This document shows, piece by piece, positions 2,226 to 64,000 of a stretch of DNA of 64,000 nucleotides (positions within the stretch are counted from its first letter, which is position 1; every line of letters begins with the position of its first letter). The position numbers and the translations under genes were made by a program. The notes below the pieces were generated by a model that saw nothing but the letters and a program-made list of their open reading frames with translations, made no database searches and was not told the DNA's origin. Location: assembly GCA_015698285.1 (NCBI GenBank), contig CP048685.1:992001-1056000 (forward strand), in the 5' to 3' direction. This DNA is from Candidatus Nitronauta litoralis (GTDB lineage: Bacteria > Nitrospinota > Nitrospinia > Nitrospinales > Nitrospinaceae).

Positions 2226-3187
2226 GAGGGCTCCATTGAAATAATTTGCTCCCTATAAATTTGCCGGTATGGGGTAATCGACTTGAGTCCGCTGAAGCCG
2301 TCCCGCATTCCCCGAACAAGAGCTTTCATGCAGGCTATCCGTTCTTTCCTGTAAACCAGCAGCTTGAGCCCAAAGTAGGCCAACAACGTCGCAGTGGAAA
2401 ACGCGAGTGAGACATATTCCTGCAATTGACTACTGGACCAGAGCTTGCAGGTCAGCAGTTTGTTTTTTGCCGTCAATTCAAGCCGCCACGGGTGGTTGAG
2501 AAAAGCGCCCTGTTCATGGTCGTGATAAATATGTGCTGGAGAAACCACCAGTAACCGGTAGCCGAAAAATCCACTGCGGTTGAAAAAATCCATTTCTTCA
2601 AACTGAAAAGGGAATCTCTTTTCATCGAACACCCCGACCTCTTCCAAGCAGGAACGATCCATAAAAAAGGCGGTGACGATTGTGTCGGTCTCCAACGTGT
2701 CAGGTAATGGTCCGTACTCTTTAAGCGTTCTTCCCTGCCCCTCAAAAGTCCCAAAAGTCGTCCACATGTTCAACCGGACACCGGCATACCAGAGCACATC
2801 CGGTTTTTCGTATTCAAACATCAAAGGGGCAAGAATAACTTTTTGCCCTTCGAGGGATTGCCGGGCTTTATAAAGTTCCTGGAATGCTTCTTCATGAACA
2901 ACCACATCATCATCAATACAAAACAAAAAGCGACCACAGGAGGCGGCAATACCCCGGTTACGGGAATGCGAGGCCTTCGAATTCACTTCATTCTGAAGCA
3001 GTTTGATATCCAAATGTCCGGCATATTTGCTGTTCAAAAACTCAAAGGTTCCATCAGGTGAGCAATCGTCGACAACGATTATTTCGCGGGAAAGCCCTTC
3101 CCAGTTTGCCTTCAGGACAGACTGGATGAGTCGTTCGACCTTGTCTTTCCGGTTATAGGTGATGATCACGACACTGACGTCTATCAT
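2222..3187 (-). CDS. Glycosyltransferase family 2
   Basis: A 321-residue GT-A fold enzyme. The N-terminus DVSVVIITYNRKDKVERLIQ is the GT2 nucleotide-binding start, EIIVVDDCSPDGT follows, and CIDDDVVVHEE near residue 92 carries the DXD-type metal/nucleotide motif. A later FQFEEMDFFNRS fits the GT2 acceptor-side ED motif. The C-terminal 80 residues contain a weakly hydrophobic segment. It should transfer a sugar from a nucleotide donor in the cytoplasm. It overlaps both neighbours by 4 bases (ATGA-type coupling). Donor and acceptor cannot be told from sequence. Confidence 0.88.
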   Translation of the reverse strand: MIDVSVVIITYNRKDKVERLIQSVLKANWEGLSREIIVVDDCSPDGTFEFLNSKYAGHLDIKLLQNEVNSKASHSRNRGIAASCGRFLFCIDDDVVVHEEAFQELYKARQSLEGQKVILAPLMFEYEKPDVLWYAGVRLNMWTTFGTFEGQGRTLKEYGPLPDTLETDTIVTAFFMDRSCLEEVGVFDEKRFPFQFEEMDFFNRSGFFGYRLLVVSPAHIYHDHEQGAFLNHPWRLELTAKNKLLTCKLWSSSQLQEYVSLAFSTATLLAYFGLKLLVYRKERIACMKALVRGMRDGFSGLKSITPYRQIYREQIISMEPS

Positions 3188-4179
3188 TTGCCTACCCCTG
3201 AAATTTTTTCTTCCGGAGCTGTGTAAAACCCGCCATAGGAATTTCCCGAAATCAGGACCTTTAACGCTTTGGGTAATTTTTTTAATGGTTCCATGATCAG
3301 GCCCCGCTCAAGAAAAGCGGCGATTATATGGAACCTGGAAAAAGTTTTAGGCATCATGTATTCACCGCCCATCTCATCAAGCGGATTTTGGGAATCAAAA
3401 AAATACTCATAGAAATCGTCGAGGACCTTGAGGGTTCTGAGGTAAGCCCGTTCCCAGTGGTATTTTCGGGCCTGACCTCGACAATAATCTTTATCTGCTC
3501 CCTTCTCGATCGAGTGAAGGTAGACAAGTTCCGACAGGGTGAAATGCATGGGCTCATAATTCATGTGAGCAACGTGAATTAAATAGTCCATCGTTACATT
3601 TGGAATCGCGACGTCAACACCATTGAAATTTTCAATGCGTGGGTCCGACAGGATATCTGCATAATCCATATAATCGACGGCGACCCAGGAGCAACGCCCA
3701 TGCAGATGCAGCTTGAATTTTTCTTTGGAATAATAAACAGCCTTGTCTTCATCGTAGTCAATGTCCAGTGAAGGTCCCAGAAGCCCATCGAGAGCTTTCA
3801 TGGCTCCCGTAAAATCTGACACCAGAAAATCAAGGTCATTGGGTATTCGGTCATAATTTCGAAACGTTTTATGCAGCACAAAATCCTGCGGAAATTCGTT
3901 TTGCAAAAATCGGATTCCCGCCTGAATGTCTTGGACCTTTTTCTCACCCGAGGAAACAATCTCCTCAATACGTGAAAGCGCCGACGACTCAATATTTTTT
4001 CCATGCTCGTTTAAAGCATGACGGGCGACGTGAAACAACAGGTTATTGCCCTTGGCGTAAGCGAGCAAAAACTCCCAGTCCATATTTTCGATTTGACAGC
4101 CCCTTTCAGGCACGAGAGGAAAGGGGCCGCGCAGGGAATTTAGAACAAATTTTATTTCATTGGATCTATCCATTTTCAC
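3184..4179 (-). CDS. Nucleotidyltransferase-like protein (PF14907 type)
   Basis: The 331-residue protein resembles the uncharacterised nucleotidyltransferase family PF14907. The best sign is the motif RIPNDLDFLV near residue 116, an NTP-transferase strand-helix motif with paired acidic residues. It is followed by LHLHGRCSWVAVDY, and by HVAHMNYEPMHFTLSELVYLH in the helical half. Family members occur beside HPr-kinase-like genes in exopolysaccharide and peptide-modification clusters, as here: the adjacent gene upstream is HPr-kinase-like and overlaps it by 4 bases. The substrate is unknown. A role in modifying a carrier, sugar or protein of the glycan pathway is inference. Confidence 0.7.
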   Translation of the reverse strand: MKMDRSNEIKFVLNSLRGPFPLVPERGCQIENMDWEFLLAYAKGNNLLFHVARHALNEHGKNIESSALSRIEEIVSSGEKKVQDIQAGIRFLQNEFPQDFVLHKTFRNYDRIPNDLDFLVSDFTGAMKALDGLLGPSLDIDYDEDKAVYYSKEKFKLHLHGRCSWVAVDYMDYADILSDPRIENFNGVDVAIPNVTMDYLIHVAHMNYEPMHFTLSELVYLHSIEKGADKDYCRGQARKYHWERAYLRTLKVLDDFYEYFFDSQNPLDEMGGEYMMPKTFSRFHIIAAFLERGLIMEPLKKLPKALKVLISGNSYGGFYTAPEEKISGVGK

Positions 4180-5138
4180 TTCGCCATTTGAATGATTTGA
4201 TTGAGATAAAATTTTCCATGGCCTCTCAAGGTGACGGCCGGAATATCAAGACACTGATTGAAAGCCTCCCGGGTTTTTTCTTCAAGCCGACCTGAATACC
4301 CATATAAATAGTCCAGTGCCGCACTTATCCTTTCAAAACCATAGGGAAATGTTTTTTTGTTTATTGCGTTTAAACGCCTCATCGCCGTTTCCCGGTTCAA
4401 TGAAAAAGCATCATTGACCAGGCCCCTTTCCAGAAAAACGATCTGGTCTGGCTTAAACGAATCACAGATGGAATCGCCCATAACCTGATCGGGCGTCGTA
4501 TAGCGTTCCCTTGAATAAAACGCCGACCTCCCCAGTCGATTTCGTATCAACTGGGGATATCCAAAAACCCTTCCTTCGTTAAGAATGCATGTATCGTCAG
4601 AAAGGTAATCGAATTCTGCCGGATACTGTTTATGAGCCTCCAAAGTGAGACGTGTTTTCCCGATACCGCCAAATGAGGTAACCAGAAAGTTTTTTTCTTT
4701 CAGGCGAAATCCGGCAGCAAGAATCATGATGGCCTCTTTTTTAAACAGTGCTAATCCCACCATCAGCTTCATAAAATGCTCCAGAGGAAACAGGGAAGAC
4801 AGGGGAACCCGGACGATCTTCCTCAAAAACCTGGCGAAACGTTTGTTGATTAAAATTTTTGTACCCGAGGGTTTATCAAAATCACAGACTGCCAGGAAAA
4901 AATTAAACCCAAAGGGAGCCCATCGCGAAATCAACGTGTTTTGTTCGGTGTTGAAGAATACACCGGGCATCATTTCGGTTGTCGACCGCAACATGTTCTC
5001 AAACGCATTGTCCTGTTCAAATCTGAACGTCAAGTCAGCCTCCACCTCCGTTTCACCTTCAGTGCGGAAAGAAGGGGGCAACAGTGGAATTTCAGATTCC
5101 ACCGACAAAATACCGTGAATGTTATATCGTCGTGACAT
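4176..5138 (-). CDS. HPr kinase-like P-loop protein
   Basis: I take ATG at 5138 (MSRRYNIHG) as the start. An in-frame extension to 5207 exists but lies wholly inside the preceding gene. The 320-residue product has a P-loop FGGIGKT (about residues 156-162) and an acidic pair LSDDTCI (about 179-185), followed by a glycine/proline segment (GRVFGYPQLIRNR) of the HprK/PckA-type fold. It lacks the N-terminal sensor domain of true HPr kinase. Relatives are predicted small-molecule or protein serine kinases in polysaccharide and peptide clusters. It is sandwiched between a thymidylate-kinase-like gene (17-base overlap) and the PF14907 gene (4-base overlap), which suggests one functional unit. Confidence 0.7.
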   Translation of the reverse strand: MSRRYNIHGILSVESEIPLLPPSFRTEGETEVEADLTFRFEQDNAFENMLRSTTEMMPGVFFNTEQNTLISRWAPFGFNFFLAVCDFDKPSGTKILINKRFARFLRKIVRVPLSSLFPLEHFMKLMVGLALFKKEAIMILAAGFRLKEKNFLVTSFGGIGKTRLTLEAHKQYPAEFDYLSDDTCILNEGRVFGYPQLIRNRLGRSAFYSRERYTTPDQVMGDSICDSFKPDQIVFLERGLVNDAFSLNRETAMRRLNAINKKTFPYGFERISAALDYLYGYSGRLEEKTREAFNQCLDIPAVTLRGHGKFYLNQIIQMAK

Positions 5139-5745
5139 TTGCCTGAGACCCGGGATCGCATTGTTTGAGTGCCTGTTCCAGCACGTTTTTCTCTGGCTGT
5201 TCTGCATCCAGAATCGAAATGTTTAAGACTTCTGCCATTTCCCGATAAAGGGAACGGTAAAGTTGGGCAGACTCCAAAGTGTGTTCCGGCTTTCGCGCAA
5301 TAACGGTTTCCGGTTTTGCATCCAGAAAGAACACATGATCCGGGCGAGGCAGACGCCGACCAACTGCGTAGGCCAACGATTTTTTTTCCGGGAAGTCCCG
5401 AATAACAGCCAGCAGGACATCGTAGAAATAGCGATCGTATAGAATGACATCCAACGCCAGTTGATTGTTTCTCCGTTGGGTGATGTACGAATCGATGATG
5501 ACATTAATAAATCGTGCCCAGAATTTGAGTCCGCGTCCGAAAAACCCATCTTTGCGCCCCCGTATCCATTTAACGAGGCCGCGCAGCAAGCCTGAATCCT
5601 GAGCGCGAGCCATTACCGTTTGACCTTTTGAAAACAGGTGAAACATCTTTACCCGCTTTCCCTGTTCTTTAAAGTGTTTCTCCAATTCACTGACCAGGGT
5701 CGATTTCCCCGTCCCGTCCAGACCAGAGAGCGCGATTCGCATCAT
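5122..5745 (-). CDS. Thymidylate kinase-like P-loop kinase
   Basis: The 207-residue protein starts MMRIALSGLDGTGKSTL, a clear Walker A in the thymidylate-kinase style. It has LYDRYFYDVL near residue 104 (the DR[YH] motif) and DHVFFLDAKPETVIARK near 136. It is about the size of Tmk, but its place between a GT-C-like membrane protein and an HPr-kinase-like gene in a glycan cluster makes a housekeeping dTMP kinase unlikely. A specialised kinase for a sugar, lipid or nucleotide is more probable (inference). It overlaps the upstream gene by 4 bases. Confidence 0.75.
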   Translation of the reverse strand: MMRIALSGLDGTGKSTLVSELEKHFKEQGKRVKMFHLFSKGQTVMARAQDSGLLRGLVKWIRGRKDGFFGRGLKFWARFINVIIDSYITQRRNNQLALDVILYDRYFYDVLLAVIRDFPEKKSLAYAVGRRLPRPDHVFFLDAKPETVIARKPEHTLESAQLYRSLYREMAEVLNISILDAEQPEKNVLEQALKQCDPGSQANVTTI

Positions 5746-8027
5746 TCCGGCCTCCTGACTGGTCTGATCAATAACAGATAACCCAGTGCAATCGCTACCA
5801 GCAGGCAGGTGGTTAAATAAATCAATGTCAAAACCCGCTGAGCTTCCAGTTCAACAATGACCGTCTGCTCCCCATCAGAAAGAGACAGACTGGATGGATC
5901 CACAAGCCAGCCGTTAAAAATTCCGTTCACTTTGATCTGCTTCAGCTCTTCACCATTCAAATGGGCTTTCCATTGAGGTGAAAAATGAATCCGGGAAGCC
6001 AGGATCGCCGGGTTTTCGTTGTTGGGATCCAAATGAACTTTTACCTGATACTTGCTACGGTTCAATCGGGACAGGCTGTTGATTTCAAGTTGCCCGGGGC
6101 TCTTTATTTTTTTATCAACAAAATCTGAAAAATCCCTGTCCGTCAATAACCAGTAGACATCGTTTGGAGATTGGGTTTCAAAGGAGTTGACCTTATCTGG
6201 AGAATAGATAACATCCTCACCTATTCGTGCTTCATATAAAGTGTGCTCTCCAAATTTCCGCGAATTTAAGAAAGGGAACTTTTCCAGGAAGGATTTGACA
6301 TCACCGACTGGTGTCCGCATTTCGGGGAATGAGGAAGGCGTGACAAGAAAATCTTCTGTGAAAATTACGTAACGAATATTATAGAGCTTTAATATATTCT
6401 GAAAGGCCTGCTCATTCCGTGAAACAATCGCATTTTTTAAAAATTGATTGAGTGAAAAAACAGGATGACGGGCACTGAAATTAGAATTCACAGGATGTCT
6501 CAATAAAAATGCGTAAGGATCAAATCCAAAATATCCTCCTCCATATTGACTCCAGTCATACCCTTTGGTCTCTCCCGATGTTGGGAGAACCAGAACACCA
6601 AAATCACCCTCTTTCTGATTTAAAAAACTGGACAGCTCTTTAACATGCGGAGGAATGGTAAAAGCTGCCGAAACATGATGCCGGTCTTCAACATTGTCTT
6701 TTAATAAAACCATAAAAGCCGGGGATCCGATCAATCTTGGAAAGTTCACGATACAAACGCTCACTATCAATGCCGTCGGAATTCCCCATTTCCAGATTTT
6801 TTTTAAAGTTCTCGATTCCAACATCCACAAGATCAACCCACCAGCAAAGATTGCGTACATGAAATGAATGATAAACATATAGGTGGGTGGGCGTCTGAAT
6901 ACGTACAGAGGAAAATTCCTCATTAAAAATTCGATCACTCCCCCAAAGGGAGCTCGTAAAGCGGCAAATATCGGGATCGCTAACAAAAACATGAGGCCCA
7001 ACGCCAGGAAAGATGAATTTTCTTTTCGGCGTACAACCAGCACAAAAAATGCACATGCCGCCAGAAGAGGAACGCAGGACAGCACCCGCATGGCGGGACT
7101 TAGCTGAAGTGAGGAAAATCGTGTGTATTTCAGGTTAACTCCAACTTCCATTTGAGGGATAAAATATCCCTTACCCGTCAATATCCTGTTGTAGCGGGTT
7201 GTTGGATATTCTGAAACAAACCGCATGGACTGAATGGTGTCCTCCATGTAGCCGCCCTTACGGGAAAGCGCTTCCTGTGTCGCAGAATTTAAAAAATTGG
7301 GAACAACCCACCAAAGATGGAACACCACCGCGCAGACGCCCAAAAGCAAATAACGAACTACCAACCGTTTAAAAGGAAATCGGTCAAGAATACCCTGAGC
7401 AAAATAAAACAAACTCAACATCAAAAGAACGAACGCAGCGACAGGTAGGTTTCCAAGCCCCGTCACCATCAGCAAACTGAGTAGACAGGGGATCAAAATC
7501 CAACGTATCGTTTCGCTTGAGCCCTGGGCTCGAATGAGTTTATCCAGACAAATTAATAGAAACGGGAAATAGGCCAGAATGAAAATAATATTAAAATTGT
7601 AGTGGCCCCGCAAAAACCAGTACTCGTTAAACATGTACATGAAGGCAGCTATCAAAGCGGTCACTTTTACAGGAGCGCCTGTTTTATTTTTATACAGGTA
7701 GCGCACCAGGCAATACATGGAAAAACCCGCCAGGAAATAGTGCAGGTAAAATACCAGCGAATTTGCAACGTTAAGGGGAAAGATCCAGCTCAGAACAAAC
7801 GTTTCGAGGATCAATGGGAAATAGGAGAGGAGATTAAAAAAACGTCCGCCAATACTGCTCGGGTCCCAGGCAGTCAACAGGTTGGAAAGCTGAAGGGAAG
7901 GATTGATCGGTGGCAGATTGATATCCCAGATTGAATAGAACCCACCCCTCAGCACCACCAGAATTGGCAGCGAAAAAACCAACAATAACCCGAGAGGTCC
8001 CCGGTTCTCTTTAATGAATCTGGCCAT
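5742..8027 (-). CDS. GT-C / YfhO-like polytopic membrane protein
   Basis: The 761-residue product has about a dozen hydrophobic segments between residues 10 and 410, a large soluble region, and a last membrane helix before IRPVRRPE. The N-terminal loop YSIWDINLPPINPS carries acidic residues where GT-C enzymes keep their catalytic base. The C-terminal region has the YfhO-like pattern FSPQWKAHLNGEELKQIKV...GIFNGW. YfhO and the related arabinofuranosyltransferase-type proteins glycosylate lipids or polymers on the outer side of the membrane; that activity is inferred. It overlaps the SGNH gene by 17 bases and the kinase gene by 4. Confidence 0.75.
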   Translation of the reverse strand: MARFIKENRGPLGLLLVFSLPILVVLRGGFYSIWDINLPPINPSLQLSNLLTAWDPSSIGGRFFNLLSYFPLILETFVLSWIFPLNVANSLVFYLHYFLAGFSMYCLVRYLYKNKTGAPVKVTALIAAFMYMFNEYWFLRGHYNFNIIFILAYFPFLLICLDKLIRAQGSSETIRWILIPCLLSLLMVTGLGNLPVAAFVLLMLSLFYFAQGILDRFPFKRLVVRYLLLGVCAVVFHLWWVVPNFLNSATQEALSRKGGYMEDTIQSMRFVSEYPTTRYNRILTGKGYFIPQMEVGVNLKYTRFSSLQLSPAMRVLSCVPLLAACAFFVLVVRRKENSSFLALGLMFLLAIPIFAALRAPFGGVIEFLMRNFPLYVFRRPPTYMFIIHFMYAIFAGGLILWMLESRTLKKIWKWGIPTALIVSVCIVNFPRLIGSPAFMVLLKDNVEDRHHVSAAFTIPPHVKELSSFLNQKEGDFGVLVLPTSGETKGYDWSQYGGGYFGFDPYAFLLRHPVNSNFSARHPVFSLNQFLKNAIVSRNEQAFQNILKLYNIRYVIFTEDFLVTPSSFPEMRTPVGDVKSFLEKFPFLNSRKFGEHTLYEARIGEDVIYSPDKVNSFETQSPNDVYWLLTDRDFSDFVDKKIKSPGQLEINSLSRLNRSKYQVKVHLDPNNENPAILASRIHFSPQWKAHLNGEELKQIKVNGIFNGWLVDPSSLSLSDGEQTVIVELEAQRVLTLIYLTTCLLVAIALGYLLLIRPVRRPE

Positions 8028-53236: not shown

Positions 53237-53668
53237 ATGTTCTTTGCTCAACTCCATCCTTTACTAGTTCATTTTCCAGTCGGTTTACTGGTCAGCGGTG
53301 TGGTGTTTGAGTTTTACGGTAGCCTGCAAAAGGAAGAGTCGGCCAAAGAGGCAGGCCGTTTTAACATCCGATTTGGCACCTGCTGGGCTTTGCTTACGGC
53401 AGGAATCGGGTTGCTTGCCCTTTGGGGCCTTGAGTTAAAGGACGAAGCCAGGCAGTTCGTGGGATATCACCTGATGCTCGCCTCGTCCACCATGATTATA
53501 TTTGGAATCGCCATTGGAGTGACACGGTGGTTTCGAAGCCAACCCTGGTGCCGCGTGCTTTACCTCGGATTGATTCTGGTGGGTCTTGCCGGTGTACTGT
53601 CCACTGGATACTTTGGCGGGGAGCTGGTGCATCGGTTTGGAGTGGCCACGCTTCACCCGGCAGAATGA
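53237..53668 (+). CDS. DUF2231 membrane protein
   Basis: A 143-residue protein with four membrane helices. LHPLLVHFPVGLLVSGVVFE at the start is the DUF2231 motif with two histidines, and YFGGELVHRFGV near the end is the second motif; conserved histidines may bind heme or metal. The function of the family is unknown. It is convergent with, and overlaps by 16 bases, another DUF2231-like gene on the other strand. Confidence 0.82.
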   Translation: MFFAQLHPLLVHFPVGLLVSGVVFEFYGSLQKEESAKEAGRFNIRFGTCWALLTAGIGLLALWGLELKDEARQFVGYHLMLASSTMIIFGIAIGVTRWFRSQPWCRVLYLGLILVGLAGVLSTGYFGGELVHRFGVATLHPAE

Positions 53669-54123
53669 AATACCAACAAGTATCCTGAATAATAGGTGGC
53701 CCCCAGAAACAGAAGATTGATTGCGTAGATCCATTTTGCAGCAACGGAATATTTACTTGTATAGGAATAGACAGTGCTGGCGACGTAGGTCAGCATCATC
53801 GCGAAAGCATATCCCTGATGACCTTCCACCTCCGTTACCTGCCTGAGACCCAAATCTGAAGCCAACATACCTGTGAGTACGGCAAGTGCGGTTGCCAGAA
53901 GACCAAAAGTGAAATTGAGAGATGCCGCACCGGCCAGAACTGGTTTTGAATTTTTCTTGCTGAGAAAAAGCAACACGATTCCCCCGATAAACAATGCGAG
54001 AGGGAAATGCGAAAAAAAAGGATGCAGGCTTGGTGTGCTTATCATTTGGGTTTTACTGACAGGTTGTTCGGTACGCGGTTTCTCATGATGTCCGGCAAAA
54101 TCACTATATAAGGATAATGCCAC
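53653..54123 (-). CDS. Second DUF2231-like membrane protein
   Basis: GTG start at 54123 is the first possible in frame. The residues around it (LKVALVALSLYSDFAG) look like a signal segment, and ATG at 54045 is an alternative. The 156-residue product carries LHPFFSHFPLALFIGGIVLL and later GHQGYAFAMMLTYVAST and a YYSGYLLVFH end, a DUF2231-like pattern with four helices. The pairing of two relatives tail-to-tail suggests that they form one membrane complex or arose by inverted duplication. Confidence 0.65.
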   Translation of the reverse strand: MALSLYSDFAGHHEKPRTEQPVSKTQMISTPSLHPFFSHFPLALFIGGIVLLFLSKKNSKPVLAGAASLNFTFGLLATALAVLTGMLASDLGLRQVTEVEGHQGYAFAMMLTYVASTVYSYTSKYSVAAKWIYAINLLFLGATYYSGYLLVFHSAG

Positions 54124-54238: not shown

Positions 54239-54520
54239 CTATTCTGGTTTGATGTCGTTGCCTTCGTTGAGATCGAGGTTAACATCCACATCCACCTTGG
54301 TCGCGGCGGAGACCTCCTGTTCGAGCTCTTCCAAGCCGGCTGTTTTTTTCACGTTGTCTGTTTCGTCCATTACTTCCTGCTTCAAATCATCGAAGGTATT
54401 CTGAAACTCACCCCAGCCTTTACCCACGGAACGTGCCAGACGCGGCAGGTTTTCTGGACCGATCACCACAACGGCGATGCCCATGATGATCAGCAGCTCG
54501 AAGAATCCAATATCAAACAT
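54239..54520 (-). CDS. tatB: Twin-arginine translocase protein, TatB-like
   Basis: ATG at 54520 (MFDIGFFELLIIMGIAVVVI) gives the exact TatA/B start; an in-frame extension to 54580 is not needed. The 93-residue protein has one membrane helix, GPENLPRLARSVGKGWGEFQ amphipathic helix and an acidic tail. MFDIGF and the GP turn are TatB features, while TatA usually has FG. It helps recognise and export folded twin-arginine substrates. tatC is not in the window. Confidence 0.75.
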   Translation of the reverse strand: MFDIGFFELLIIMGIAVVVIGPENLPRLARSVGKGWGEFQNTFDDLKQEVMDETDNVKKTAGLEELEQEVSAATKVDVDVNLDLNEGNDIKPE

Positions 54521-54638: not shown

Positions 54639-55211
54639 TTACGGTGTTGCCCTGGAATTTTTTATCAACACCCTTGCTGCGTTTTTGGCCTGTTTTGCAC
54701 TGATGGGTGAATTGTTGATTTGAGCCATGGTGATAGCGCCTTCAAGTAACAGTAATAACTGCTCGGCTAGAGAGCGGGGGCGTTCCAGTTTGGCTTGATT
54801 GGCCAGCGTTTCAATATAATCCAAAAGTACGGCTTTAAATTCTCTGCATATATTGCGAATCGCCGTTCCTTCTTCCGGAAATTCTCCAGTTGCCCCAACA
54901 AACATGCAGCCAAAAAAATCCCCCTGACCAAACCATTCTTCAGCCACATCATAAATTGCAAGCAGCCTCCCCTGGGGTGTGGATGATCTTTTCTCAATTG
55001 ATTTGATGAATTGATTCCGAAACCGTTCATCGTAATAACGCAAAACAGCAAGGATCAAGTCATCTTTGGAGCGGAAATGATTGTACAGGGTCCTTTTAGC
55101 CACTCCTGATTTTTCCAGAATGGTGTCAATACCCACCGCATGAAATCCATTTCTGGAAAACAGCTTTTGGGCCGTACCGATTAGTTTTTCGCGTTTGGAT
55201 AAAGCTGGCAT
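54639..55211 (-). CDS. TetR/AcrR-family repressor
   Basis: A 190-residue regulator with the HTH GIDTILEKSGVAKRTLYNHF (about 27-46) and an all-helical ligand domain with LAEQLLLLLEGAITMAQ. It is divergent from the YHS gene, and the palindrome at 55356-55377 in the shared interval is a fitting TetR operator. The inducer is unknown; the regulated genes (YHS, DUF4383, cytochrome P460) point to nitrosative, metal or redox stress. Autoregulation is likely. Confidence 0.9.
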   Translation of the reverse strand: MPALSKREKLIGTAQKLFSRNGFHAVGIDTILEKSGVAKRTLYNHFRSKDDLILAVLRYYDERFRNQFIKSIEKRSSTPQGRLLAIYDVAEEWFGQGDFFGCMFVGATGEFPEEGTAIRNICREFKAVLLDYIETLANQAKLERPRSLAEQLLLLLEGAITMAQINNSPISAKQAKNAARVLIKNSRATP

Positions 55212-55335
55212 CGTTAAACACAGTTCAAATAATAGACAGATCCGTTCCTGAATATATTCCCGGGCTAAAAAGCAAACCCCTGTAAATCCTTATTCTATCA
55301 CCGCTTAATAAAGGTCGTGAAAAATAAAAAATAAA

Positions 55336-55377
55336 TTGTAAGGATTCCCCATGTTAAGTATACAGACCTGTATACTT
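55336..55377 (+). promoter_or_regulatory. Promoter with perfect palindromic operator before the YHS gene
   Basis: The operator is AAGTATACAG, 2 bases, CTGTATACTT (55356-55377), with perfect 10-base arms. A promoter TTGTAA (55336-55341), 17 bases, TATACA (55359-55364) places the -10 inside the operator, so a bound TetR dimer would block polymerase. The YHS start is 58 bases downstream of the operator. Confidence 0.75.
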
Positions 55378-55435
55378 TTTTCGGAAAAATAACCTGAAAA
55401 ATCAACTAACCATAGAGAAAAATAAGGAGTGAATC

Positions 55436-55960
55436 ATGAAATCCATTTTTGCAAACCGTCTTCGTTTCTTTTCCATTCTGGCCCTCGTTATGGCCTTAAC
55501 CGCGAATATTGCCTGTGCTGGCCAGAACTCCACGATGAAAAAAGAAGGAAGCATGAAGGGTCATTTTCAAATTTCGATGGCCGCCAATAGCATTGTGGGG
55601 GTTCAGGGGTATGACCTGGTGTCTTACCGGACCAATGAAAAACCATTGAAAGGGAATGGAAACCATGTTGTGGAACATCACGGCATCACCTATCTGTTCA
55701 TAAACAAAGAAAATCAGCAAAAATTTGCGGCGCACCCTCATAAATACCTTCCTGCCTTTGGTGGTTACTGTGCCTATGGTGTTGCGGTTGGAAAAAAATT
55801 CGTCGGAGACCCGGACGTCTGGAAAATCGTAGACAACACCCTTTATCTGAACCTGGACAACAAGATTCAGGGAATCTGGAACAAAGATATTTCCGGAAAT
55901 ATCCAAAAAGCCGAGAACAACTGGGTCAATATCAAGGACAAAAATGCGGCTGATCTTTAA
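55436..55960 (+). CDS. Exported YHS-domain protein
   Basis: AAGGAG lies 7 bases before ATG. The 174-residue protein has a signal peptide (about 1-28, ending NIACAGQ) and a YHS domain: VQGYDLVSYRTNEKPLKGN and FGGYCAYGVAVGKKFVGDPD with the single Cys near 112. Exported YHS proteins of this type are thought to bind metal or redox ligands in the periplasm. It is the first gene after the TetR operator; a hairpin (56006-56033) separates it from the DUF4383 gene. Confidence 0.88.
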   Translation: MKSIFANRLRFFSILALVMALTANIACAGQNSTMKKEGSMKGHFQISMAANSIVGVQGYDLVSYRTNEKPLKGNGNHVVEHHGITYLFINKENQQKFAAHPHKYLPAFGGYCAYGVAVGKKFVGDPDVWKIVDNTLYLNLDNKIQGIWNKDISGNIQKAENNWVNIKDKNAADL

Positions 55961-56005
55961 GCAAACCCACTTTTAAATAACAAATCAAAATGGGTTGTGG
56001 TGCCT

Positions 56006-56033
56006 GTGATCCCCGGGTTTGAAAAGGGATCAC
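56006..56033 (+). other. Stable hairpin between the YHS and DUF4383 genes
   Basis: GTGATCCC pairs perfectly with GGGATCAC around a 12-base loop. No T-run follows, so it is more likely an RNA-processing or mRNA-stability element than a full terminator. It would raise YHS mRNA relative to the downstream genes. Confidence 0.5.
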
Positions 56034-56085
56034 GGGTATCAAACATCCATTCAATCATTAAAGAGAATATTGAAGGAGCGGTCCA

Positions 56086-56481
56086 ATGAATACGTTTGCC
56101 ACAAAGCTGGCCTGTTTTTTTTCTGCAGCTTTTTTGTTAGCCGCCGTGGTCGGTTTTTTTCCAAACCCGGTGGTGGGAGCCAATGGGGTATTTATCACCA
56201 ACGCGGCGCATAACCTGGTTCACCTTGCGACCTCCCTTGGATTTGCAGCCGTGGCCATTCTGGGTAATACAGCATCTTTGGCCTTTTTGAAGGGGTTTGG
56301 TGCGACGTACCTTCTGGTCGGAGCTGTTGGATTTTTTGTGACAGGTATGGGGTCAGAGGGAATGTTGCTGGGATTTATCCATATCAATGCAATGGATAAC
56401 TTTCTTCATCTAGCCCTGGGAACAACTATTCTGACCTCCGGAATTCTGTCGGGAGTTGTTTTGAAAACCCAGGAAGCTTGA
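56086..56481 (+). CDS. DUF4383 membrane protein
   Basis: GGAG lies about 10 bases before ATG (AAGGAGCGGTCCA). The 131-residue protein has four helices with the DUF4383 pattern NAAHNLVHLATSLGFAAVAI and HINAMDNFLHLALGTTIL; the His-rich motifs NLVHL and DNFLHL may bind a metal or heme. Function is unknown. It sits between the YHS and cytochrome P460 genes, probably in one regulon under the TetR operator. Confidence 0.83.
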   Translation: MNTFATKLACFFSAAFLLAAVVGFFPNPVVGANGVFITNAAHNLVHLATSLGFAAVAILGNTASLAFLKGFGATYLLVGAVGFFVTGMGSEGMLLGFIHINAMDNFLHLALGTTILTSGILSGVVLKTQEA

Positions 56482-56536
56482 GGGAGGTTTTTTAAAACCC
56501 ATTCCCCTAATTTTTTATCTATATAAGGAAAACAAA

Positions 56537-57136
56537 ATGAAATGTTCAAACTATGTACTGGGCTTTTTGGTTTTAACCTGGGTTTTTCTAAGCTCCACAG
56601 GGCTTGCAAACAGCCTGGAGAACAAACCCTTTGCTCCCAATGTGGATATTCATACAGGAGAAATCCGCGTCCCGGAAGATTACACCCTGTGGCCGACACT
56701 GGGTACCTGGTCACATGCCAACAGCGGGGACCCGGCCGGGGCAAAGGAATACCATACGGTTTACACACAACCAGAAACGATCAGGCATTACCAGAAGTAT
56801 GGCCAATACCCTGACGGCGCCGTGTTGGTGAAGGAACTTTTAAACACAGACACCATGCCAATGACCACTGGGTCGGCGGTGAGCCACGCAACAACCATCA
56901 AGGGCTGGTTCGTTCTGGTGAGAGATACCCGGAACCGTTTCAGCTCTTCTCCGTTATGGGGTGATGGATGGGGATGGTCTTTGTTCAATGCAGAAAATCC
57001 CAAAAAAACGGTTTCCAAAGATTACAAGGAAGACTGCCTTGCCTGCCATTTGCCTGCAAGAGAGCTGGCTCCCAGTGATGCTGTTGACGCGGACAAATGG
57101 ATTTACTCATTCGGCTATCCAGTACTGCGTAATTAG
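56537..57136 (+). CDS. Cytochrome P460-family c-type heme protein
   Basis: AAGGAAAACAAA precedes ATG. The 199-residue protein has a signal peptide (about 1-24) and one heme site C167-L-A-C170-H171. TLGTWSHANSG, EYHTVYTQPETIRHY, the G-W-rich WGDGWGWSLFNA and the C-terminal heme site match cytochrome P460, in which a Lys cross-links the heme. P460 oxidises hydroxylamine and NO to N2O in the periplasm. Here it probably detoxifies reactive nitrogen; whether the cross-linking Lys is present cannot be settled by eye. Last gene of the TetR set. Confidence 0.88.
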   Translation: MKCSNYVLGFLVLTWVFLSSTGLANSLENKPFAPNVDIHTGEIRVPEDYTLWPTLGTWSHANSGDPAGAKEYHTVYTQPETIRHYQKYGQYPDGAVLVKELLNTDTMPMTTGSAVSHATTIKGWFVLVRDTRNRFSSSPLWGDGWGWSLFNAENPKKTVSKDYKEDCLACHLPARELAPSDAVDADKWIYSFGYPVLRN

Positions 57137-57162
57137 AACTATCCCCTGGATTAGCCTATCGG

Positions 57163-57213
57163 GATCCCGGCAGGAGTACTTTTTTATGTCCTCCTTATTC
57201 TCTTGCCGGGATC
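57163..57213 (+). terminator. Probable terminator after the cytochrome P460 gene
   Basis: GATCCCGGCA (57163-57172) pairs perfectly with TGCCGGGATC (57204-57213). An inner AGGAG/CTCCT stem may form too. It is followed by TTGTCCTCCCC rather than a clean T-run. It separates the TetR-regulated set from ribF. Confidence 0.5.
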
Positions 57214-57275
57214 TTGTCCTCCCCCCTTTCAAGTTCATGATTCCAAGTGATTCCCATATGCGTTAGAATTTCGTT

Positions 57276-59310: not shown

Positions 59311-59397
59311 GCCGAAGTGGCGGAATTGGTAGACGCGCATGGTTCAGGACCATGTGGGGGCAACCCCGTGGAGGTTCAAGTCCTCTCTTCGGCACCA
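59311..59397 (+). tRNA. tRNA-Leu (CAG)
   Basis: The acceptor stem GCCGAAG pairs with CTTCGGC, followed by A and an encoded CCA (59395-59397). The anticodon loop TTCAGGA (59343-59349) has anticodon CAG at 59345-59347, on a CATGG/CCATG stem. A long variable arm (GGGGGCAACCCC) and the T-arm GTTCAAGTC confirm a class II leucine tRNA. The 87-base length is normal. Confidence 0.97.
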
Positions 59398-59731: not shown

Positions 59732-59866
59732 CTAGTTTTTGCGGAGCTCGTAACAATCTTTAATTTCATCCCACGCAGGCTCTCCTACATATTTGACGCA
59801 ATACTTTAGCTCAGGTGTTCCCTTCGCACCAGCCTTGGTCAATTCGTTATCAATCGCCTCAATTGG
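59732..59866 (-). pseudogene. Truncated host gene, 3' end only, cut by prophage DNA
   Basis: Read from about 59866 leftward, the minus strand codes for PIEAIDNELTKAGAKGTPEL, then KYCVKYVGEPAWDEIKDCYE and LRKN before TAG (59732-59734). The sequence is strongly protein-like (two cysteines, alternating charged and aromatic residues), but its beginning is missing. Just to the right (59866 on), the plus strand becomes homologous to Mu gpF. The junction is therefore at about 59865. The family is not recognised. Confidence 0.5.
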
Positions 59867-60783
59867 ATTACTGCACCGCCCACGCGGCAGGTGCAGAAGC
59901 GCAGATGCAACGCACTAAAGCGCGAAGGCCCTATGCCCGATACATCGCCGGACTTTCAGTTGAGCCCAGGCCGGAACATCTTGAATGGCACAACACCGTT
60001 TTGCCGCTCGATCACCCCTGGTGGCACACCCACACCCCGCCCAATGACTGGGGCTGCAAGTGCAAAAAAGTTTCGGTGTCAAAACGTGAAGCGGAACGCG
60101 ATGGCTTGCAAATTTTAGACGACGCGCCAAGAAACGGCACCTACAAATGGAAAGATCCCCGAACCGGTAAAGAGCACACCTTTCCCAGCGGCATCGGCAA
60201 ATTTTGGGACTACAATCCAGGTCGCGCCGCCTGGGGACAGGTAGAAACAAAACGCCTGGCAGATGGCGCTGCAGCCGGGAAATTTACAACACTGCCATCT
60301 GGCGGCCCAGGTGATTGGGCACGGCCCGCAACGGTTCCGGTCGACGCGCCCAGGCGGTCAGCAGGACCGGCAGTTGATCGCGCGCCCGAAGTGCGCCAGG
60401 TATTGCGCGATGGAATTGGCGGTGAAGAGGCAATGTATCAAGACCCGTTCGGAGATTTTGTGAACGTCAATCAGGGGATTGCCGATCACATCATCGAAAA
60501 CCCAAAAAGAATTGATGGGCGGGAGCGTTTCTTCCCGTTCATCCAGGAAACAATTGAAGATCCTTATGAGGTTTGGGTGTCGTTTGCTCGGGAAGACGCG
60601 ACAGGAAAGGTGTCTTTGCGCCGCCGTTACGTCAAGTCGATTCAGCTCGATAAAAACAGAACCATGACACTGGTTGCTAATGTTGAAAAAGGAAAATGGA
60701 TCGGGTTTGATTTTTTTTCAAGGTCCAAAAAGTCGAACCTGAATCACATGCGAACGGGGGTACTAGTGTGGGGGAGGGAATGA
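59866..60783 (+). CDS. Mu gpF-like head protein, 5'-truncated, with PBECR2-like nuclease domain
   Basis: The frame opens at ATG 59815, but its first 17 codons are host sequence; homology starts near 59866 (TAHAAGAEAQMQRTKARRPY). The C-terminal part of a Mu gpF minor head protein follows: RPEHLEWHNTVLPLDHPWWH and PPNDWGCKCKKVSV. Residues about 207-305 (DPFGDFVNVNQGIADHIIEN; YEVWVSFARED; RRRYVKSIQL; IGFDFFS) match the PBECR2 domain, a predicted RNase-type toxin fused to phage head proteins. The N-terminal two thirds of gpF are absent, so the head function is lost; the toxin domain is whole. Confidence 0.7.
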   Translation, partial: DYCTAHAAGAEAQMQRTKARRPYARYIAGLSVEPRPEHLEWHNTVLPLDHPWWHTHTPPNDWGCKCKKVSVSKREAERDGLQILDDAPRNGTYKWKDPRTGKEHTFPSGIGKFWDYNPGRAAWGQVETKRLADGAAAGKFTTLPSGGPGDWARPATVPVDAPRRSAGPAVDRAPEVRQVLRDGIGGEEAMYQDPFGDFVNVNQGIADHIIENPKRIDGRERFFPFIQETIEDPYEVWVSFAREDATGKVSLRRRYVKSIQLDKNRTMTLVANVEKGKWIGFDFFSRSKKSNLNHMRTGVLVWGRE

Positions 60784-60930
60784 TGGCTTCGCCTGTGAAC
60801 AGCCACGCCTGTCACGGCTTGTGCCGGAGCTTTTGGAACGTGGTCCTGCTCTGCACAGTTCAGGCTTGCGCCCTACATCCGGGGTGCCAAACCCGAACCC
60901 ATGCAAATATTTTAACGCCGGGGACAAAAG

Positions 60931-61494
60931 ATGGCAAGTGAGTCTGAATTTATTGACGTTGTGGTCGATGACAACAGCCTGAATGAAAAGCTGGAACGGC
61001 TTCACGCCAGACTTTTAAACCTGACTCCAGTCATGCAGGAGTTCGGGGAAATCGGCCTGGCTTCGATCACCAAAAACTTTGAGGTTGGTGGCAGGTATTC
61101 CGAAGCGGGTTCATGGCGCGGCGGCGATAAAAAATGGAAACCACTCTCTATTGTCACCCTGCTTGGTGGTGAAGCGTTTGGTGAAAAAGGCAAAGGAAAA
61201 TTCAGAAAGAAAAAAGACGGTTCTTTGACCAAGCGTGGTCAGAAAAGACTGGATGGAAAAAAAATCCTGATCGGTCAGGGCAACCTTTTGAATTCGATCA
61301 GCTCAAAGGCCGACATTGATTCGGTTCAATGGGGAACCAACATGATCTACGCAGCTATCCACAATTTTGGAGGTAAGGCAGGACGCGGGAAAAAGGTCGA
61401 CATTCCCGCAAGACCTTACCTGGTGTTGCAGGATCAGGACCTCGATGAAATGACCGCAGTACTGGACGATTACCTGACAGGAGATTTTCAATAA
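60931..61494 (+). CDS. Phage virion morphogenesis protein (Mu gpG-like, Phage_tail_S)
   Basis: The 187-residue protein has the N-terminal helix DNSLNEKLERLHARLLNLTP, then FGEIGLASITKNFEVGGRYS, WKPLSIVTLLGG and GQGNLLNSISSKADIDSV, and the final IPARPYLVLQDQDLDEM, all typical of PF05069. It acts in tail completion or head-tail joining. The frame is intact. The stop overlaps the start of the next gene (TAATGG). The 147 bases before it code for nothing recognised. Confidence 0.83.
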   Translation: MASESEFIDVVVDDNSLNEKLERLHARLLNLTPVMQEFGEIGLASITKNFEVGGRYSEAGSWRGGDKKWKPLSIVTLLGGEAFGEKGKGKFRKKKDGSLTKRGQKRLDGKKILIGQGNLLNSISSKADIDSVQWGTNMIYAAIHNFGGKAGRGKKVDIPARPYLVLQDQDLDEMTAVLDDYLTGDFQ

Positions 61495-61922
61495 TGGATG
61501 AACTATACGCTCTTAAAATTTCTCAACTGGGTTCAAAGGCTCCTGAATTTATCCAGATCGCACCCCTCGGAATATTGCAGGATGGACAGGGCCGGAAGTT
61601 TGAAATAACTCCGGAAGTCGTTCAGAAAATTATTGATGTTTACAGCAATCGTGAAAATGATCTCGTTATCGATTACGAGCATTAGACGAAGGTAGTTGTC
61701 ATTGAAACGATCCCAATGACTCTGGCCACTGCTCTTGATCTGAATGAAAGCGCAACCATCTCCGAAGCCGAAGCGACTGTATTAGCTCTGAAGCAAAAAA
61801 TGGAAACGGGTGAAAGTGCCCGTGTCGAAGAGCTCGCCAGTGAATGTTCCCCGTCGGCCAAATCTGGTCCGGCACCTCAAATGAGAAAAGTTGCTCGTTC
61901 TAAAAAATACCCCCCCTGTTAA
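61494..61922 (+). pseudogene. Mu gpI-like protease/scaffold gene with amber stop and internal deletion
   Basis: The frame begins MDELYALKISQLGSKAPEFI and reaches NDLVIDYEH, then TAG at 61683-61685 where the family has Gln (DYEHQT). The same frame then continues from 61686 to 61922 through TKVVVIETIPMTLATALDLN, ESATISEAEATVLALKQ, the C-terminal part of the scaffold. The middle (protease core, GWI segment) is missing, so a large in-frame deletion is combined with a C-to-T nonsense change. Non-functional. Confidence 0.7.
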
Positions 61923-62032
61923 CCTTTAATAAAAAAAGAATAAAGGGGTAATAAAACCGCTGTCTCGCAACCTGCCATTTTTCGTAACTCTAGTGCTGGT
62001 TCGCACAAGTGCAAGTAAGCGGCAAGATTTTA

Positions 62033-62060
62033 CCTGCCGGGCAAAACTTGCAGGCTTTTT
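62033..62060 (+). terminator. Rho-independent terminator
   Basis: CCTGC and GCAGG enclose a 12-base loop, followed by CTTTTT. A wider inverted repeat (GCAAG-ATTTT with AAAA-CTTGC) overlaps it and offers an alternative fold. It isolates the flagellar promoter from prophage transcription. Confidence 0.6.
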
Positions 62061-62130
62061 CCTCCCCACCCCCACTTCCCTGTCTCTATAAATCGCTAAT
62101 TTTTAATGCGTTACAAAAGGGCGCCGGTTT

Positions 62131-62146
62131 TGGCACGAGCGTTGCT
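62131..62146 (+). promoter_or_regulatory. Sigma-54 promoter for the fliK operon
   Basis: TGGCACGAGCGTTGCT contains the conserved -24 GG and -12 GC dinucleotides at the correct spacing (TGGCAC, 5 bases, TTGCT). Initiation is expected near 62157-62158, giving a leader of about 220 nt. Sigma-54 control of hook and rod genes is common in polar-flagellated bacteria. The enhancer-binding activator (FlrC/FleR type) is not in the window. Confidence 0.8.
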
Positions 62147-62151
62147 TATTA

Positions 62152-62182
62152 GGTCGCAGGAGACCCGGCTAAAGTACCGGGT
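62152..62182 (+). other. Tandem small hairpins at the start of the fliK leader
   Basis: GGTC, 6 bases, GACC is followed directly by ACCCGG, CTAAAGTA, CCGGGT (62163-62182). They lie at the very 5' end of the predicted transcript and could stabilise it. I compared the layout with the c-di-GMP riboswitch pattern and it does not match. Confidence 0.4.
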
Positions 62183-62379
62183 ACCCTTTTTAAAAGACAA
62201 AAACAAAGGTGGGATTCTTCAGGAGTCTTAAATATTTTTAAAGTTGAAAAATTTCAAGAGTACGAGTGACACGTCAAAAGCATTAAGCAAAAAGGTTTCA
62301 GGCCATAAGTCGTCCTTGAAAAGGGCGCACGAATTGCCCTTAAAGAAAACTTTAGAATAACGAGTGGCACATTAAAAAT

Positions 62380-63960
62380 ATGAACAACCCGAGCCAAATT
62401 CAGTTTCCGCTTCTCGCGCCTCAAAAGGCGGTGGACTCTCCAGACCGGTTGATTAAACCGGACAAGCAGGGTCAGCCGAAGTTTGATCATTACCTTGATC
62501 GCGAGGTCAACCAGCCGCATCTGGAGCGTTCGACCCGTAAGGAACGTGCCTCGGATACCAAGCCGCGTGATGTTGAACGGTCGGAACGTCTCAACGATAC
62601 CCTCGCCCGCTCGCGTGAATCGCAACATCCTGCGGAAACAACGAATAATACCCGTCCTGAAACCCAGCCTCGTGAAGCGGTGGGTAATCCGGAGACGGGG
62701 CCGGCCATTGCGTCTGCAAAAGCGAAACTTCCAGAAGAACACCGCGCTCTCGGCACGGGTGAAAAACCGGCTTCTCCTGAAGAGAAACTGGTGAAAGCGT
62801 TGAAGGATCTCAATCTCGACCAGGAACGCATCGACACCATCCTGAGCACGATCAAACAGGGACCAAATGCGGAAGACGTCATCAAAGCGTTGGGCGGACT
62901 GCTCAGTCAACTCGCCAATGTTGAAGGTCTGGCCGATGCGGCAACCAAATCCGGTGCTGGCAAAGGTGAAGATCCTTTAAAGACGCTGGCTTCCCTGTTC
63001 CAGCAAAAAACCAGCCTGACAGACACGGCCACCAAATCCGGCGAACAGCAACTCAAGTTGCAGGGCATTCTGGAAGAAGCCGGCCTGAGCCCGGAAGAAG
63101 CGAAGAAACTGCTGGCTTCGGCGCGTCAGGGTAACGTTTCAAAAGATTTTAACGAACTCAAAACACAGATCGCCCGCGCCACGGAAGACAAAAATTTAGT
63201 CAAGGAAGGCCCTGCAAACTCATTGGAGAATAAATCTCTGAACCAGTTGCTGGGCGGGCGCTTGCAAAACGCCAACGCGTCTACCGGGCAGGAAACCGCC
63301 ACCAACCTGGCGCAGCAGGCTGCAACAAATCCACTACTCGCGAAATCTCCAGCAGTCGCACTGCAATTTGTTTCCAACACACCACAGACCGGAGGCCTGC
63401 ACGCTCAACCGTTGACGGACAGCGGATCAACTCAACCGATCAGCAGTGTGAGTGAAGCGTCGTCCCGCACGACGGAAACGGTACGTGTGAACAACCCGGC
63501 TAACGTTACACCGCGCGGCCTGGTTGAAAAACCGATTGCCCAACAGATCATCGACAAGTTTGCGATCCGCGGAGCGGGTCAGCAGAAAGAAATTTTCATC
63601 AAACTCGATCCACCGTCGCTCGGCACCGTTCGCATGAACGTTTCGACTTCCGGTGAGAACGTAAAGACCACGCTGGTTGCGGAAAACCAGGTGGTCAAAC
63701 AAACAATTGAAAGCAACCTGACACAGTTGAAAGATGCTCTAAACACTCAGGGCATCAAGGTCGACAGCTTCACTGTACTGGTTGGCGGAAACCAGGGACA
63801 GCCCATGCCGCATCAGCGTCATGAAGGCCAGAGCCAGGCGCGTTTCTTTGGTTCCCAGCACGGTAACGAATTAAATCTGAATCTCGTTCCAGAAGATATT
63901 CCTCCGGGACGTTCACCCGTTTTCATTCATCCATCGCAATCCATCAGCCTGTTTGCATAA
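62380..63960 (+). CDS. fliK: Flagellar hook-length control protein
   Basis: The 526-residue protein has a long, low-complexity, Gln/Thr/Arg-rich N-terminal part (ruler) and a C-terminal Flg_hook domain (about 390-475: IAQQIIDKFAIRGAGQQKEI, FIKLDPPSLGTVRMNVS, and a later DALNTQGIKVDSFTV). LDPPSLGTVRM is the FliK signature. FliK is secreted during hook building and switches the export gate when the hook is full length. It is transcribed from a sigma-54 promoter and followed by another flagellar gene after 27 bases. Confidence 0.93.
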   Translation: MNNPSQIQFPLLAPQKAVDSPDRLIKPDKQGQPKFDHYLDREVNQPHLERSTRKERASDTKPRDVERSERLNDTLARSRESQHPAETTNNTRPETQPREAVGNPETGPAIASAKAKLPEEHRALGTGEKPASPEEKLVKALKDLNLDQERIDTILSTIKQGPNAEDVIKALGGLLSQLANVEGLADAATKSGAGKGEDPLKTLASLFQQKTSLTDTATKSGEQQLKLQGILEEAGLSPEEAKKLLASARQGNVSKDFNELKTQIARATEDKNLVKEGPANSLENKSLNQLLGGRLQNANASTGQETATNLAQQAATNPLLAKSPAVALQFVSNTPQTGGLHAQPLTDSGSTQPISSVSEASSRTTETVRVNNPANVTPRGLVEKPIAQQIIDKFAIRGAGQQKEIFIKLDPPSLGTVRMNVSTSGENVKTTLVAENQVVKQTIESNLTQLKDALNTQGIKVDSFTVLVGGNQGQPMPHQRHEGQSQARFFGSQHGNELNLNLVPEDIPPGRSPVFIHPSQSISLFA

Positions 63961-63987
63961 CGCCCGGCAGGCCTGAAAGGTAAGATC

Positions 63988-64000
63988 ATGATCGCAGGAC
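63988..64000 (+). CDS. Start of the next flagellar gene, probably flgD
   Basis: ATGATCGCAGGAC runs off the right edge. AAAGG sits about 8 bases before the ATG. Only four codons are seen; the flgD guess is from the usual fliK-flgD order. Confidence 0.4.

Follow-up and report, generated by a model that had tools for sequence, protein, structure and literature searches.

The window, a 64,000-nucleotide stretch of the genome of Candidatus Nitronauta litoralis EB, a cultured marine nitrite oxidizer of the Nitrospinota (PMC8026999), carries a compact gene cassette arranged around a predicted regulatory site. A TetR-family repressor gene encoding 190 amino acids occupies positions 54639–55211 on the minus strand (TetR_N match, E 8.9e-15), in agreement with the divergent TetR gene of the initial annotation. 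On the plus strand follow a -35-like element TTGTAAGGA (55336–55344), the palindromic predicted operator AAGTATACAG-AC-CTGTATACTT (55356–55377, strand not applicable), the gene of an exported protein of the YHS (seleno)protein family in its cysteine form (55436–55960; NF041384), a DUF4383 membrane protein gene (56086–56481; PF14325 match) and a gene for an exported protein of cytochrome P460 fold (56537–57136; PF16694 match, CLACH heme site). The latter three bear out the earlier proposal of three envelope proteins including a P460 heme protein. A perfect 8-bp hairpin read from the sequence (GTGATCCC/GGGATCAC, 56006–56033, plus strand) lies between the YHS and DUF4383 genes, where it might possibly set their relative expression, and a second hairpin with a 17-bp stem (57160–57216, plus strand; z-score -4.6) 3' of the P460 gene probably marks the end of the operon. 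In the window, the flanks of the cassette hold a TatA-family gene, a pair of DUF2231 genes and ribF. The DUF2231 membrane-protein genes (53237–53668, plus strand; 53653–54123, minus strand) overlap at their 3' ends, and the TatA-family gene (54239–54520) adjoins them. Farther along the window, tRNA-Leu(CAG) (59311–59397) is followed by phage genes at 59815–64000, including a minor head protein (phrog_220) and a tail completion/Neck1 protein (phrog_26); this is a prophage edge, with integration possibly at tRNA-Leu(CAG).

The operator had been described as a 22-base perfect palindrome. Both 10-base arms, AAGTATACAG and CTGTATACTT, are indeed perfect, but the symmetry extends to 20 of 22 positions because the AC centre is asymmetric. 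A genome-wide search for further copies, as had been proposed, returned 55356–55377 as the sole site with three or fewer mismatches in the 3.92-Mb genome, and no shuffle of the window sequence contained a match at that threshold. Across the 65 genomes of the group there are three such sites, all at cassettes. A chance palindrome was considered and is ruled out by the shuffles, the single genomic site and the linkage to cassettes and TetR. This operator is also found ahead of the Nitrospirota cassettes, in the form AAGTATACAGATCTGTATACTA, with a self-complementary AT centre, and a motif search found AAGTATACAGATCTGTATACTA-like sites at 10/10 Nitrospirota TetR loci (score 343.6 vs. 174–183 for shuffled sequences). 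Compared with AAGTATACAGATCTGTATACTT, the best upstream site matched at 14–21 of 22 positions in all 21 TetR loci, whereas it reached only 10–13 of 22 in 19 of the 20 loci without TetR; the exception, L072, has an operator site upstream of YHS. The association of operator with TetR is significant at a stricter cut (Fisher 1.3e-7), with the sites of the Nitrospinota loci L060, L088 and L090 being weak when taken singly. As the palindrome adjoins the divergent gene and travels with the regulator, the two are predicted to form a TetR-family operator–repressor pair.

The placement of the palindrome over the -10 element is plausible in that TTGTAA-17-TATACA overlaps it, but a consensus scan gives no sigma-70 promoter there. 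The cassette promoter is a poor sigma-70 fit, and a second conserved element lies upstream of the operator (the -35-like TGTAAGG in 12/12 Nitrospinota cassettes; TGTAAC in Nitrospirota). ECF sigma genes occur near some loci, and the reading of the promoter by an ECF factor is speculation. In the regulator itself, C102 and C122 are invariant in 21/21 cassette TetRs from two phyla. A role of these cysteines as sensor is a guess, since C102 sits in a GC motif that also occurs in structurally solved TetRs unrelated to this one (3jsj, 3g7r).

In a survey of the window genome and its 64 nearest relatives (65 genomes), a close P460 relative of at least 63% identity was present in 15. The TetR-YHS-P460 set occurs in 12 of the 15 Nitrospinota P460 loci, often with DUF4383 and/or DM13; one of these 12 cassettes is split between contigs and one has P460 on the other side of TetR. 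Within the order, YHS was found in 14 of the 15 genomes with P460 vs. 2 of the 50 without it (Fisher 2.8e-11, kinship ignored). The flanks of the cassette vary between genomes, and the idea of a fixed locus in the genus was rejected on finding ribF and the cassette on different contigs in G001. A wider scan, combining a P460 alignment with exact peptide patterns over one genome per species (84,980), yielded 43 loci in Nitrospinota, Nitrospira and other Nitrospirales, plus single Nitrotoga, Nitrosospira-labelled and Methylotenera records (the last at 50% identity). The record labelled 'Nitrosospira' (L074) groups within Nitrospira in the P460 tree and is probably mislabelled or misbinned. Among the Nitrospirota loci, nine have the complete TetR-YHS-P460 set, six more have YHS and P460 without TetR, and four have DUF4383 behind P460. 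The initial annotation had named a lack of co-occurrence in other genomes as the outcome that would speak against such a set; that outcome did not arise, because the association is conserved at 12 Nitrospinota and 9 Nitrospirota loci. Comparison shows that TetR, the predicted operator, YHS and P460 belong together as a single conserved unit, to which DUF4383 or DM13 is often added.

In the P460 tree, the Nitrospirota sequences form one supported group, and the nesting of the Candidatus Nitrotoga sequence inside it suggests that the latter was acquired by transfer. Matches were found in 18/296 sampled Nitrospirota genomes (one at just 41% identity) and in 1/150 genomes of the Nitrotoga family; the gene is thus patchy, and its presence in Nitrotoga points to a single transfer and not to a family trait. 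At that locus (L076, Ca. Nitrotoga sp. MKT, 1100–7884) P460 lies amid two MsrA genes, two MsrB genes, a DsbD-thioredoxin fusion and a lactonase-type beta-propeller, in what looks like a protein-oxidation repair island. P460 relatives above ~57% identity belong almost exclusively to lineages that are nitrite oxidizers by taxonomy. Strict restriction to nitrite oxidizers is ruled out by proteobacterial plasmid relatives found by tblastn at 40–52% identity in Rhizobium, Sinorhizobium, Paraburkholderia, Pseudomonas and Alicycliphilus, the wide scan having used exact peptide patterns. A further plasmid, from Comamonadaceae OS-4 (L106, 1999–6023), encodes a YHS protein 52% identical to that of the window, followed directly by a UDG-superfamily gene; an AhpD-like gene and ResA are close by, and there is no P460 match.

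The P460 protein scores 80.4 bits against PF16694 (cut-off 27), and its heme-site residues C167, C170 and H171 are invariant. Its structure model has a pLDDT of 85.6; the 25 best PDB matches are all P460 or c'-beta, and the matches at E < 0.001 are exclusively of these two kinds. K99 aligns with the cross-link Lys70 of Nitrosomonas europaea P460 and is invariant in 42/42 relatives, so that, judged from the alignment, the cross-link lysine is predicted to be retained. In contrast, the distal carboxylate (Glu96/Asp102) of hydroxylamine-oxidizing cytochrome P460 is missing: F125 aligns with the proton-accepting Glu96 of N. europaea, and the position is F in 42/42 relatives. Both K and F are also kept in the aligned plasmid proteins of Sinorhizobium, Paraburkholderia, Pseudomonas and Alicycliphilus. 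The protein further carries an LWGDGWGW insert. In ten of the 42 relatives, position 124 is Y or F, which places them outside the F125-containing scan pattern. Three more P460-fold genes are present in the same genome (G000:C1:3109347, 1865273 and 2372149; loci L002, L004 and L005); their products look like cytochromes c'-beta because Phe or Met replaces the cross-link Lys. At seven loci (L055, L059, L075, L081, L083, L084 and L098) from Nitrospinota, Nitrospirota and Pseudomonas, a P460 of the Lys+Phe type lies near a second P460 that has Lys and Glu/Asp by homology, perhaps as a two-protein arrangement.

Hydroxylamine oxidation by P460 requires the distal carboxylate (PMC11928373, a 2025 review), and hydroxylamine, which had been suggested alongside NO as the compound handled by the system, is accordingly disfavored as a substrate of this protein, with Phe at that position in 42/42 relatives. 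The P460 of Nitrosomonas sp. AL212, with Ala at the carboxylate position, is cross-linked yet inactive on hydroxylamine, and variants with Gln, Leu or Asp there are inactive too (PMC11928373). The same review describes 'halfway house' P460s with a nonpolar pocket, listing their functions as yet to be resolved, and the window protein groups with these since the cross-link Lys is kept and the carboxylate replaced by Phe. A detoxification system in which P460 oxidizes hydroxylamine leaked by ammonia oxidizers, with TetR responding to hydroxylamine, would fit the family assignment with its CxxCH and cross-link Lys, the inhibition of nitrite oxidizers by hydroxylamine (PMC11928373) and the second, carboxylate-bearing P460 at the seven paired loci. 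We nonetheless judge it improbable: besides F125 and the inactive AL212 variants, the three other P460-fold proteins of the window genome are without the cross-link Lys, and nitrite oxidizers do not transform hydroxylamine (PMC11928373).

The YHS protein scores 133.8 bits against NF041384, 'YHS domain-containing (seleno)protein' (cut-off 70), and 21.1 bits against Pfam YHS (PF04945), below the gathering score of 30.3. It has a single invariant cysteine, C112, in the motif GGYCAYG (26/26). We found no solved structure of an NF041384 member, the only matches being weak ones to YHS-like repeats in two eukaryotic proteins, and structure prediction failed (pLDDT 47.7); a function as thiol or metal partner is a guess. 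The DUF4383 protein exceeds the gathering score of PF14325 (36.6 vs. 27 bits), with H42, H46 and H108 invariant in nine relatives. Its suggested role as a P460 partner holds insofar as the association is frequent (nine loci), but it is not obligatory, as DM13 replaces or joins it elsewhere. A hypoxia gene table from M. avium, in which a DUF4383 gene is little changed without DosR, is uninformative here. Electron transfer as the function of DUF4383 and DM13 is likewise a guess. Extended to the whole cassette, it would make P460, DM13 and DUF4383 a redox chain unrelated to stress, with TetR sensing a metabolite. DM13 ('electron transfer') does lie beside or within five cassettes and the DUF4383 membrane protein has conserved His; however, DM13 and DUF4383 come and go between loci, YHS and TetR being more constant, and the patchy occurrence (15/65 genomes) with differing flanks is unlike that of core energy genes. 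Such a side branch is, in our estimation, quite improbable.

Neighboring genes offer additional clues, with the limit that damage-repair neighbors are found mostly at loci other than that of the window, mainly in other lineages. MsrA/MsrB, SelO, AhpD-like and UDG proteins repair or remove oxidized methionine and peroxides, with deaminated cytosine as the lesion addressed by UDG. A UDG-superfamily gene adjoins the cassette or YHS in six Nitrospinota genomes, at three Nitrospirota loci and on two proteobacterial plasmids. The adjacency alone is strong, the genome-level co-occurrence being weak (Fisher 0.04); the link was picked after viewing many neighbors, and other activities are also represented in the UDG superfamily. 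MsrA or MsrB lies near P460 at Nitrospira, Nitrotoga, Methylotenera and Paraburkholderia loci, SelO at three Nitrospira-type loci, and a peroxidase-related AhpD-like CMD protein at Nitrospira and Pseudomonas-type loci; DsbD-thioredoxin is also among the neighbors. An alternative reading is a defense against reactive chlorine or general thiol/methionine oxidation, induced by hypochlorite or by chlorite, which nitrite oxidoreductase can form from chlorate, with repair by MsrA/B, AhpD-like and RclA/MerA-like enzymes. The MsrA/MsrB and AhpD-like neighbors would suit it, as would a pyridine nucleotide-disulphide oxidoreductase–VTT fusion next to two Nitrospinota cassettes (L052, L060), the presence of DUF417 at the Pseudomonas locus and the match of the TetR alignment profile to NemR (4yze, E 2.9e-13). 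Yet the oxidoreductase scores under every curated cut-off shown (RclA, 203 vs. 740 bits), the window cassette has none of these genes, and UDG suggests base deamination, a nitrosative lesion; we regard this explanation as rather unlikely. Cytosine is deaminated by N2O3 arising from NO, a form of damage against which Ung protects Salmonella (PMC2680585). In Nitrospinota, NirK is present in most members and norBC in none of those analyzed (PMC10839748), so that NO may form without NorBC to remove it. Taken with the nonpolar pocket, the neighbor genes make NO or related reactive nitrogen a plausible target.

Our preferred explanation, to which we give about an even chance, is that the cassette is an envelope stress module under TetR repression, directed at reactive nitrogen or oxygen species and built around a P460 of the 'halfway-house' type to which NO or a related oxidant binds. 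TetR would bind the promoter-overlapping palindrome and keep the operon off until released by one of these reactive species, perhaps via C102 and C122. The induced operon would then export YHS and a lysine-cross-linked P460 with a nonpolar distal pocket, which most likely would bind and turn over NO or a related oxidant (peroxynitrite, peroxide) in the periplasm and would not oxidize hydroxylamine; membrane-bound DUF4383 or DM13 may supply or remove electrons. The need for such a module in nitrite oxidizers would stem from their handling of nitrite and of the reactive species derived from it. The broader proposition, that the cassette constitutes a dedicated nitrosative or oxidant defense of nitrite oxidizers in Nitrospinota and Nitrospirota, once passed to Nitrotoga, which combines a distinct Lys+Phe P460 class of non-hydroxylamine chemistry with a cross-phylum TetR-operator switch, is put forward more tentatively, at somewhat less than even odds. 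Under either wording, the cassette is a concrete inducible candidate for how nitrite oxidizers cope with the reactive products of nitrite, and it presents a natural P460 family with the cross-link lysine present and the carboxylate absent. It also calls for caution: not every 'cytochrome P460' gene of a nitrifier counts as a source of N2O from hydroxylamine. As several hosts are in culture (Ca. Nitronauta litoralis, Nitrospira moscoviensis), the function of the cassette is testable.

P460 with YHS and DUF4383 partners had been thought not to be an established pathway, and our literature search likewise found no paper joining P460, YHS and TetR; the Nitrospinota genome papers PMC10839748 and PMC8026999 make no mention of P460. 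Each protein family is already known, and what is new is the regulated cassette around a carboxylate-free P460 class. With the cytochrome P460 of Nitrosomonas europaea and AL212 (2je2, 6amg), the window protein shares the fold, CxxCH, the position of the cross-link lysine and the character of an exported single-heme protein. It differs in that F125 replaces Glu96 of the N. europaea protein, a position at which the inactive AL212 protein has Ala, and in its extra LWGDGWGW, its low identity (~20–28%) and its linkage to YHS and TetR. The A131E variant of AL212 P460 gains activity on hydroxylamine. Cytochromes c'-beta (6hih, 7s5o) resemble it in fold, in having no distal carboxylate and in the predicted hydrophobic pocket, but they are without the cross-link lysine, whereas the window P460 has K99 and is on that count set apart from them. 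Similarly, the window TetR has the TetR_N DNA-binding domain of regulators of the DicD/YjdC, AcuR and NemR kinds and matches them in part at the C-terminus, yet it scores far under all equivalog cut-offs (best 70.2 vs. 240 bits) and differs by its second invariant cysteine, C122. Finally, the window YHS protein is like the NF041384 family in score and in the conserved GGYCAYG, and differs from it in having Cys in place of selenocysteine.
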